A DNA stretch of 64,000 nt. Origin: an alpha proteobacterium IMCC14465 (lineage in GTDB: Bacteria > Pseudomonadota > Alphaproteobacteria > RS24). The translations under genes and the position numbers were made by a program. The notes beneath the pieces are model-generated. The model did no database searches. It saw only the letters and a list, made by a program, of their open reading frames with translations, and was not told where the DNA came from. Below, one piece after another: positions 32,817-35,982 of the stretch (positions within the stretch are counted from its first letter, which is position 1; each line of letters begins with the position of its first letter). Where the stretch lies: contig ALYF01000003.1 of the NCBI GenBank assembly GCA_000293845.2, forward strand, positions 496,001 through 560,000, in the 5' to 3' direction.

Positions 32817-33833
32817 TTAGCCAGATGGTGGATAATCTGTTCTGGAAACAAGATGAGAGGCAAATTTTTCAGTCGCGGTCTGCCAGCTGAAACTTTCAGC
32901 ATATTTGCGCGCTGATTTTTTAGAAATATGGACTGCCTCTTCACAAGCTGTTTTCAAATCCTTATGCATCACGGCTGATTTTGTTGTGCCAAGCACATCT
33001 ATCGGGCCAGCAACCGGATAGGCGGCAACAGGTAAGCCACAAGCCATGGCCTCGAGCATAACAAGGCCAAATGTGTCGGTTTTACTCGGGAAAACAAAAA
33101 CATCGGCAGAACGGTAGTAATCCGGGAGTTCTTCCATTGATTTCATGCCAAAAAACGTCACATCCGGATATTTTTGCTTCAGAGAAGCCAAATCAGGGCC
33201 ATCACCAACGACCCATTTCTCACCCTTTAAATCAAGCGCCAAAAAAGCCTCTAGATTTTTTTCAACCGCGACACGGCCTACTGACAGATATATGGGGCCC
33301 TTTTTGCTTGGAAAAGCAGGTTTTCCTGGGCTAAACAGGTCAAGGTCAACCCCGCGTGGCCATAAAACAGGATTGCCAATCCGCCACTCCTTCAAGGCGT
33401 CTACGACGGCAGGCGTCGGCACCATGACCCTTTCCGATTTTTTGTGAAACCAGCGTAAAAACGCATAGCTAATACCTAGCGGGAGACCTGTGCGCGCCTT
33501 AACATATTCGGGAAATCGCGTGTGATAGGCGGTTGTGAAAGGCATGTTTGTTTTGACCGCATAGCGGCGCGCGGCAAGGCCAAGTGGTCCTTCAGTCGCG
33601 ATATGCAGCGCATCCGGTTCAAAGTCTTTGATTTTTTTGCGCACTGCGGCGGCGGCAAAAGGGGCAATGCGAATTTCGGGATAGCTTGGCAGGGGCACAG
33701 AAAAAAATGGCTCTGGCGTGACCATATCGACCTCATTGCCTGCAGCTAAGAGACATTCACGCGTTTTAAACAAGGTGCGAACCACACCATTTACTTGCGG
33801 GAACCAAGCATCACTAATGATAAGAATTTTCAT
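32817..33833 (-). CDS. agt: GT4-family glycosyltransferase, likely diacylglycerol glycosyltransferase
   Basis: Cytoplasmic or peripheral membrane glycosyltransferase of 338 residues. The start MKILIISDAWFPQVNGVVRT, the donor-site segments YLSVGRVAVEKN and DTFGLVMLEAMACGLPVAA, and the GT-B layout are those of family GT4. It begins three bases after the upstream metallophosphoesterase gene. That pairing matches the plcP-agt operons known from marine alphaproteobacteria, in which phosphate starvation replaces phospholipids by glycolipids. The assignment as Agt is inferred from the pairing and fold; another sugar acceptor cannot be ruled out. Confidence 0.7.
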   Translation of the reverse strand: MKILIISDAWFPQVNGVVRTLFKTRECLLAAGNEVDMVTPEPFFSVPLPSYPEIRIAPFAAAAVRKKIKDFEPDALHIATEGPLGLAARRYAVKTNMPFTTAYHTRFPEYVKARTGLPLGISYAFLRWFHKKSERVMVPTPAVVDALKEWRIGNPVLWPRGVDLDLFSPGKPAFPSKKGPIYLSVGRVAVEKNLEAFLALDLKGEKWVVGDGPDLASLKQKYPDVTFFGMKSMEELPDYYRSADVFVFPSKTDTFGLVMLEAMACGLPVAAYPVAGPIDVLGTTKSAVMHKDLKTACEEAVHISKKSARKYAESFSWQTATEKFASHLVSRTDYPPSG

Positions 33834-33836
33834 AAT

Positions 33837-34667
33837 TTAACTGGCCAGAACTGTTTCGGGCAGGTCTTCATTATCAGACAGGCTATCAACCAGATGATCC
33901 CAGTAGATAATTTCGAGACGACCATCATCATGTTCGACAAGTGCCGATAGTGACTCGACCCAGTCCCCGTCATTGGCATAAAGAATGCCGTCAATTTCGC
34001 GCATTTCGGCTTTATGAATATGACCGCAGACTACCCCGTCGCAACCTTTGCGCTTGGTTTGTGTGACCATCACTTTTTCATAGGTGCTGATAAATGAAAC
34101 CGCACCTTTGACCTTATGCTTAAGATATTGTGAGAGGGACCAATAGGGCAGTTTAAATAAACGCCGCACCGCATTCAGATAATTATTAACGACCAGAAGC
34201 GTCGTATAGGCAACGTCACCTAAATGAGCGACCCAGCGTGCATGTTGCATAATGCCGTCAAATTTATCACCGTGAACAACCCAGAGTTGCTTGCCATCGG
34301 CAGTCTCATGAATGGCCTCGTCGACAATTTCGATATCGCCGAATTTCATATCTACAAATTGCCGCGCCGCCTCATCATGATTGCCCGGTACATAAACAAC
34401 GCGTGTACCTTTACGCGCTTTTCTGAGAATTTTTTGAATGACGTCATTATGGGCTTGCGGCCAGAAAAATTTCTTCTTAAGCCGCCAGCCGTCAATTATG
34501 TCACCAACAAGATATATGGTATCGGCTTCAGTGTGTTTAAGAAAATCCAGCAAGCTAGATGCTTTGCATCCTGCCGTGCCAAGGTGAATATCTGAGATCC
34601 AAATTGTACGATATTTAGCCGGCCCAATTTGATCGTTACCTATAAAAGACAAATTCGAATCATCCAT
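33837..34667 (-). CDS. plcP: metallophosphoesterase, PlcP-type phospholipase C
   Basis: Protein of 276 residues with a complete two-metal phosphoesterase site: SDIHLG, GDIIDGW, GNHDE, HGDKFD and GHIHKAE. Such proteins are often annotated as UDP-2,3-diacylglucosamine hydrolase (LpxH-like). The direct coupling to a GT4 glycosyltransferase and the Pho-box-like repeat 23 bases before the start instead fit PlcP, the enzyme that releases diacylglycerol from phospholipids under phosphate limitation. The start has only a close AGAGG as ribosome binding site. Confidence 0.72.
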   Translation of the reverse strand: MDDSNLSFIGNDQIGPAKYRTIWISDIHLGTAGCKASSLLDFLKHTEADTIYLVGDIIDGWRLKKKFFWPQAHNDVIQKILRKARKGTRVVYVPGNHDEAARQFVDMKFGDIEIVDEAIHETADGKQLWVVHGDKFDGIMQHARWVAHLGDVAYTTLLVVNNYLNAVRRLFKLPYWSLSQYLKHKVKGAVSFISTYEKVMVTQTKRKGCDGVVCGHIHKAEMREIDGILYANDGDWVESLSALVEHDDGRLEIIYWDHLVDSLSDNEDLPETVLAS

Positions 34668-34689
34668 ACCTCTTAGGTAGTCGGATTCA

Positions 34690-34707
34690 ATTACAGATTT
34701 GTGACAA
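34690..34707 (-). promoter_or_regulatory. Pho-box-like element upstream of plcP
   Basis: On the - strand the sequence reads TTGTCAC-AAAT-CTGTAAT. This is a direct repeat of 7-base half sites with 11-base periodicity, as in the PhoB box (CTGTCAT, 4 bases, CTGTCAT); 11 of 14 half-site positions match. It ends 23 bases before the plcP ATG. Confidence 0.6.
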
Positions 34708-34742: not shown

Positions 34743-35411
34743 TTATTCTGTGTTATTTTTCGGTAATAATGCCCGTACTAAATAATAAGCAAGTACCGCC
34801 CCTAAAAGTTGAGCTAGGACAAAAAAAGGCATGTCGCATAGCCTGATGCCTGAAAAACTGTCCGTAAAGCTGCGCCCCAGCGTGACCGCCGGATTAGCGA
34901 AGCTTGTCGATGCCGTGAACCAGTAACCTGCTGTGATATAAAGGCTGACCAGACTGGCAACACTTTCGGGTCGATGCCGTAAACCTGTTAGTATCGTTGC
35001 GACAAGACCAAAAGTTGCGACGCTCTCTGCGAGCCATATATTGCTCCCATAACGCATATTGACACTCGTTTGTATCAGGCTTTGATCGAACATGGCGTGA
35101 GCAAGCATCACCCCCGCCATCGCGCCAAGGCATTGAAAGACGATATATTGAGTGCAATCCACCGCGCCAAGCTCCCCTTTGAGCCAGAACACGACGCTGA
35201 CCGCCGGGTTAAAATGAGCCCCTGAGACTGGCCCCAAACATGTTATCAGCACATATAAAATGCCTGCCGTGGCAAGTGTGTTGCCGAGCAAAGCGACAGC
35301 CGCATTACCCTCCGCCAGAGTTTCAGCCATAATGCCAGAGCCGACGACTGTGGCGACAAGAAACAAGGTACCAATAAATTCACTGGCAAGTTTGCGCGTG
35401 TCAAAAATCAT
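34743..35411 (-). CDS. aquaglyceroporin (MIP family), AqpS-like
   Basis: Inner-membrane channel of 222 residues with six membrane segments and both NPA boxes: GAHFNPAVSVVFW in the first half and SFANPAVTLGRSFTD in the second. It lies 15 bases downstream of the arsenate reductase gene in the same direction. In Sinorhizobium meliloti the aquaglyceroporin AqpS sits in the ars operon and lets arsenite produced by ArsC leave the cell. The same role is inferred here. No arsR, arsB or arsH is next to it. Confidence 0.85.
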   Translation of the reverse strand: MIFDTRKLASEFIGTLFLVATVVGSGIMAETLAEGNAAVALLGNTLATAGILYVLITCLGPVSGAHFNPAVSVVFWLKGELGAVDCTQYIVFQCLGAMAGVMLAHAMFDQSLIQTSVNMRYGSNIWLAESVATFGLVATILTGLRHRPESVASLVSLYITAGYWFTASTSFANPAVTLGRSFTDSFSGIRLCDMPFFVLAQLLGAVLAYYLVRALLPKNNTE

Positions 35412-35426
35412 ATCTTTAATTCATCT

Positions 35427-35873
35427 CTATTTTGTCAGGCCAGCTGATATTTCATCATTTATTTTCTTAATAATCATGTCAAAGATCTTCTCGAAATATT
35501 GTCGGGCAGAGACTCTGTCCCCTGAAAATTTGGCTGGGTCTGGAAAAGGCCAGTGATGCGTGACTGGATGCCCCGGCCAAATGGGGCAGGCTTCCCCGGC
35601 GGCATTATCACAAACCGTGACGATATAATCCATCTCAGCCATAGGGGTGCCGCTATTTTGTTGTCCGAACATGTCCCAGTTTTTGGAGTGGTAGCCTTCT
35701 ATGGAAATGTTTCTGTCCGTTAATATTTCCAGAGCCATTGGGTGAACTGCACCTGTTGGTTTGCTTCCCGCGCTATAGGCTTGCCATCTATCCTTGTAGT
35801 GATGATTGACATAGGCTTCAGCCAGAATGGATCTGCAACTATTTCCAGTGCATAAAAAAAGAATGTGTTTCAT
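35427..35873 (-). CDS. arsC: arsenate reductase, thioredoxin-coupled low-molecular-weight phosphatase type
   Basis: Protein of 148 residues with the P-loop CTGNSCRS (Cys8, Arg14, Ser15) and the acid loop WPFPDPAKF. Cys88 and Cys95 in VCDNAAGEAC are positioned like the resolving cysteines of Staphylococcus ArsC (Cys10, Cys82, Cys89), so it should reduce arsenate rather than act as a tyrosine phosphatase. It is the first gene of a two-gene unit with the aquaglyceroporin. A Pho-box-like repeat lies about 90 bases upstream, which would tie arsenate detoxification to phosphate starvation. Confidence 0.88.
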   Translation of the reverse strand: MKHILFLCTGNSCRSILAEAYVNHHYKDRWQAYSAGSKPTGAVHPMALEILTDRNISIEGYHSKNWDMFGQQNSGTPMAEMDYIVTVCDNAAGEACPIWPGHPVTHHWPFPDPAKFSGDRVSARQYFEKIFDMIIKKINDEISAGLTK

Positions 35874-35964: not shown

Positions 35965-35982
35965 ATGACACAAATGTGACGT
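35965..35982 (-). promoter_or_regulatory. Pho-box-like element upstream of arsC
   Basis: On the - strand the sequence reads ACGTCAC-ATTT-GTGTCAT, two 7-base half sites with 11-base periodicity and a near-consensus second half (10 of 14 positions overall). It lies in the 196-base gap before arsC, 92 bases from its start. No clear -10 follows, so the call is weaker than for plcP. Confidence 0.45.

Follow-up and report, generated by a model that had tools for sequence, protein, structure and literature searches.

A predicted Pho-regulated plcP-agt operon for lipid remodelling lies behind a probable arsenate-disposal gene pair in a small-genome alphaproteobacterium

Results

The plcP-agt locus

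The window, a 64,000-nucleotide stretch of contig ALYF01000003.1 from the alphaproteobacterium IMCC14465, carries two complete adjoining genes on the minus strand. The first, plcP (34667 to 33837), encodes a 276-residue metallophosphoesterase, predicted to be an enzyme of the phospholipase-C type, and the second, agt (33833 to 32817), encodes a 338-residue GT4 glycosyltransferase. In Pfam searches the two products match Metallophos/Metallophos_2 and Glyco_transf_4/Glycos_transf_1, respectively, above the cut-offs, and exactly three bases separate the genes. A preliminary description of this DNA had reported a complete metallophosphoesterase and a GT4 glycosyltransferase with a three-base gap, and the open reading frames and Pfam domains agree with it. 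It overlooked the two genes directly upstream of plcP, arsC and aqpS.

The PlcP-Agt pair here is the known type 2 plcP-agt arrangement (Sebastian et al., PMC4796936). It shares gene order, protein families and an upstream Pho box with the type 2 operons of the marine bacteria Ca. Pelagibacter HTCC7211 and Erythrobacter NAP1, but it differs from them in having arsC-aqpS directly upstream and in its PlcP, which groups with sequences from SAR116 and betaproteobacteria. Of the 80 named plcP loci, 63 have agt adjoining plcP, as do all 21 untruncated loci of our first set of relatives (L004-L024). The pairing has exceptions, since the plcP gene of Sinorhizobium lacks a neighbouring agt. The distribution of PlcP itself is patchy: it is present in 85 of the 241 sampled genomes of the class and missing from several complete members of the organism's own family. 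The genome analysed is 1.92 Mb in size and 99.75% complete.

Another close known system is P. aeruginosa PA3219-PA3218 (plcP-agt1; PMC8528852), which likewise has adjoining genes and a Pho box and whose products are 55% and 50% identical to those in the window. The P. aeruginosa copy used for comparison is located on a plasmid with the glycosyltransferase alongside, as in PA3219-PA3218, but arsenic genes are absent from the stretch read around it. The S. meliloti protein (SMc00171) also belongs to the PlcP family, but its gene has no adjoining agt. In the record that we used, which is labelled pSymB yet is 3.7 Mb long, an acyl-homoserine-lactone synthase gene and the gene of a LuxR-type regulator lie upstream of the S. 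meliloti copy, which fits the sinRI neighbourhood of SMc00171, and an MFS transporter gene lies downstream.

A Pho box upstream of plcP

A Pho box, TTGTCACAAATCTGTAAT, is located at 34690-34707 on the minus strand, 22 bp upstream of the plcP start codon, and is kept in the genus. It consists of two 7-mers (TTGTCAC and CTGTAAT, with AAAT between them) in an 11-base register and is one mismatch away from YTGTCAYNNNNYTGTCAY, a relaxed version of the Pho box consensus CTGTCATNNNNCTGTCAT (PMC8528852). When the bases of the 75-bp intergenic region were shuffled, only 3 of 20,000 shuffles reached one mismatch or fewer. The earlier observation of an 11-base-spaced direct repeat close to the PhoB box is confirmed. 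The whole 1.92-Mb genome contains 7 sites with at most one mismatch, or ~0.0003 per 75 bp. The position of the box is conserved in all five members of the genus that have plcP; in the four congeners it lies at -40 and reads TTGTCACAAATCTGTAAC in three and TTGTCACAATTTTGTAAT in one.

A genome-wide scan of the kind proposed in the preliminary description placed the plcP form of the box before pstS as well: the pattern TTGTCACNNNNCTGTAAT recurs 50 bp upstream of this gene. This pstS is part of a full phoR-pstSCAB-phoU-phoB cluster (L057), whose genes were named from sequence and gene order. A match to the Pho box with at most two mismatches was found within 300 bp upstream of plcP in 36 of the 80 named loci, compared with 6 when the upstream regions were read backwards, 0.2 when they were shuffled and 0 inside plcP, in a set where many loci are from Burkholderiales and are therefore not independent. 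The box at the promoter and the encoded PhoR and PhoB support the assignment of plcP-agt to the Pho regulon, with predicted induction at low phosphate.

Two further sites were seen in the genome. A third site of the TTGTCACNNNNCTGTAAT form (L032:1501-1518, G000:C8:30111-30128) precedes a small outer-membrane-like open reading frame on contig C8, for which a Pfam search gave no match; this is possibly another Pho target. A Pho-like site with two mismatches, TTGTCACACATCTGTAAG (L058:1493-1510, G000:C3:76992-77009), lies directly before a gene for a GT2-family glycosyltransferase.

The upstream arsC-aqpS pair

Arsenate is a toxic look-alike of phosphate and gets into cells as a phosphate analogue. 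The gene next to plcP on its 5' side (34743-35411, minus strand) encodes an AqpS-like aquaporin of the MIP family (PF00230) with NPA motifs, the second of which is NPAV instead of the usual NPAR. It is found upstream of plcP in every member of the genus that has plcP. Before it lies arsC (35427-35873, minus strand), encoding an arsenate reductase of the LMW-phosphatase type (PF01451) with the CX5R loop CTGNSCRS and the downstream redox cysteines VCDNAAGEACP. Its best NCBIfam match, TIGR02691, scores 91.2 bits and does not reach the curated cut-off of 174.3; we therefore do not claim equivalog membership, and the name rests on the cysteine motifs and the AqpS neighbour. SAR11 HTCC7211 has the same two families side by side in its LMWPc_ArsC-AqpS arsenate resistance pair, and its arsC is reported to be up 2.3-fold under phosphate starvation (PMC6426599). 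In the window, by comparison, arsC-aqpS and plcP-agt together make up a single same-strand run.

A weaker Pho-like repeat, ACGTCACATTTGTGTCAT, with three mismatches, lies 91 bp upstream of arsC (35965-35982, minus strand). In three congeners it is better formed, reading ATGTCACAATCGTGTCAT with two mismatches, and another half-site precedes it by 11 bp.

The PlcP-Agt pair could be real and yet be part of what is mainly an arsenate- or general-stress operon, expressed from the arsC promoter, with the plcP box minor or inactive. All four genes indeed share a strand, separated by 15, 75 and 3 bp, and the order arsC-aqpS-plcP-agt recurs throughout the genus as well as in two species of one other genus. 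However, the box in the aqpS-plcP gap, whose distance is constant, is stronger and better conserved than the repeat before arsC, its pattern is common to pstS, and there is no arsR-like regulator adjacent to the four genes. We thus regard a stress operon of this kind as unlikely and favour control of plcP-agt by PhoB.

Arsenate genes near plcP-agt in other families

PlcP and AqpS are both present in 35 genomes of the class sample, and in five of these, from five families, their genes are within 3 kb of each other. With the window genome excluded, four such cases were seen in 34 genomes against 0.064 expected by chance, a figure that takes no account of phylogeny or of the clustering to which genes of the same response are generally prone. 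The four other families (L154, L155, L156 and L157) differ in the orientation of the genes. L154 contains pstA-pstB-phoU-phoB-arsC, with aqpS, dgkA and plcP-agt nearby, and L155 contains phoR-pstS with plcP-agt-aqpS. In L156, aqpS is accompanied by an arsC of the glutaredoxin type, not of the LMW-phosphatase type, and is convergent to plcP-agt; aqpS is also convergent to plcP-agt in L157. In a literature search, with most subscription journals outside its scope, we found no paper on a link between plcP and arsenate genes.

Other neighbours were also observed at plcP-agt loci. Diacylglycerol kinase genes (dgkA) are located near plcP-agt at L154:3930-4289 and L159:6765-7208, where they possibly serve to return spare diacylglycerol to phosphatidic acid. 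The L155 region (G182:C1:137000-152000), from a 1.6-Mb genome, has two plcP-agt pairs ~6 kb apart, adjoining pstS, phoR and a gene for a 699-residue polyphosphate-kinase-like protein.

Agt resembles diacylglycerol glycosyltransferases

Agt (32817-33833) contains both published motifs, GRVAxEKN in the form GRVAVEKN and FPSxTDTFG in the form FPSKTDTFG. We checked 13 residues that are required for the activity of SAR11 GTcp or belong to its catalytic dyad, and all 13 are identical in Agt, with the catalytic His and Asp conserved. From GTcp residue 163 onward the two numberings differ by a constant offset of three, and the diacylglycerol-contacting residues His104, Arg160 and Trp317 of Agt correspond to His104, Arg163 and Trp320 of GTcp. 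Agt shares 49.5% identity with Agt1 of P. aeruginosa, an enzyme that produces MGDG (PMC8528852). Together these features support a lipid glycosyltransferase that would make glycosyl-diacylglycerol, with MGDG or GADG as the predicted product. The donor sugar is not deducible from the sequence, because GTcp takes three UDP-sugars and P. aeruginosa divides the glycolipid work between two enzymes, having in PA0842 a second glycosyltransferase for GADG (PMC8528852).

The GT4 family is very large and its members differ in function, and the NCBIfam matches of Agt are all below threshold, which would leave room for an enzyme acting on another acceptor, such as a cell-wall or polysaccharide glycan, with PlcP alone in phosphate recovery. 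The conservation of every mutationally essential residue that we checked, the three diacylglycerol contacts included, and the closeness to an enzyme that makes MGDG argue against this, and we consider it very improbable.

The metallophosphoesterase belongs to the PlcP family

The window protein shows 52.5% identity to S. meliloti PlcP and 55% to P. aeruginosa PlcP. Its calcineurin-like metal site (SD-H, GD, GNHD, H and GH-H) falls in invariant columns of the alignment. We built a tree from the window protein, its relatives in the class, the named loci, the S. meliloti and P. aeruginosa PlcP orthologues, which were picked by gene neighbourhood in their records, and an LpxH set made up of E. coli LpxH and seven sequences from betaproteobacteria that also carry PlcP. 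The LpxH proteins form one clade with support of 100/100. The window protein is on the other side, with S. meliloti and P. aeruginosa PlcP; this side also includes two divergent alphaproteobacterial phosphoesterases. A motif follows the same division, being GNHDE in 36 of 38 PlcP rows, the window protein among them, GNHDA in the other 2, and GNRDF in all 8 LpxH rows. In the seven betaproteobacterial genomes PlcP and LpxH are both present, at separate loci. The protein is therefore supported as a member of the PlcP family, with predicted hydrolysis of phospholipids to diacylglycerol.

LpxH shares the metallophosphoesterase superfamily with PlcP and is the usual annotation of PlcP, but it has a different role. 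The preliminary description had called the first gene PlcP and warned that it is easily annotated as LpxH-like, and it had proposed a tree as a check. Both statements hold: the tree, GNHDE and the LpxH scores point to PlcP, and public records name the orthologues 'UDP-2,3-diacylglucosamine diphosphatase'. The genome has LpxI at C1:37851-38264, flanked by lpxA and lpxB (neighbours named by sequence), which makes LpxH dispensable. The genome yielded only two PF00149 proteins; the second, of 267 residues and followed by YebC-like and RuvC-like genes, is not LpxH-like. An LpxH of the lipid A pathway, paired with a glycosyltransferase of LPS synthesis, is thus strongly disfavoured and was rejected, since the public annotation and the LpxH identity of the nearest solved structures and NCBIfam models, at weak scores, are outweighed by the low scores against the LpxH models (39.7 and 32.6 bits, where the cut-offs are 134 and 190), the separate LpxH clade, the GNHDE motif in place of GNRDF, the lpxI gene and the lack of the plcP gene in many relatives, complete ones included.

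Within the PlcP side, the sequences of the window genus (33837-34667, minus strand, in the window) group with SAR116, other single-cell alphaproteobacterial and betaproteobacterial sequences, and the PlcP of other genera of the family groups with S. meliloti. This split placement suggests horizontal acquisition.

Discussion

The function of PlcP-Agt has been established experimentally in Phaeobacter, SAR11, P. aeruginosa and Methylosinus (PMC4796936, PMC8528852, PMC9239053). Our reading of the window pair is built on its sequence identities, family placement and catalytic residues, on the conserved promoter repeat and its counterpart before pstS, and on the presence of LpxI elsewhere in the genome. 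From these we infer the activities of the two enzymes, their induction, the exchange of lipids and the part played by the arsenic genes. In the proposed mechanism, scarce phosphate would act through PhoR and PhoB on the box at 34690-34707. PlcP would then split the phosphate head group off membrane phospholipids, which would free phosphate and leave diacylglycerol. With a UDP-sugar as donor, Agt would attach glucose, galactose or glucuronate to the diacylglycerol, and the resulting glycolipids would replace phospholipids. ArsC and AqpS probably remove the arsenate that enters by starvation-induced phosphate uptake. We hold it to be highly likely that the plcP-agt operon is controlled by PhoB and swaps phospholipids for glycolipids at low phosphate, with arsC-aqpS probably disposing of arsenate.

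A broader proposal is that arsC-aqpS-plcP-agt is a single phosphate-starvation module under PhoB control, which links the disposal of arsenate with lipid remodelling and has been assembled repeatedly in unrelated alphaproteobacterial lineages, which vary the gene order and even the family of the arsenate reductase, some with dgkA nearby. We see the chances of this joint module as evenly balanced.

With plcP and agt, this small-genome bacterium very probably can trade phospholipids for sugar lipids when phosphate is exhausted. Saving phosphate by lipid exchange is a known strategy, and the window adds one more lineage predicted to use it. The plcP gene here also provides a case in which the standard annotation, LpxH, is misleading. 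Less expected is the location of plcP-agt directly behind a probable arsenate-disposal gene pair, a context that we find modestly interesting. Because arsenate enters cells as a phosphate analogue, the recurring link between plcP and arsenate genes suggests that the two respond jointly when phosphate is scarce, an idea that can be tested. If the joint module is real, the arsenate burden would be among the permanent costs of life at low phosphate.
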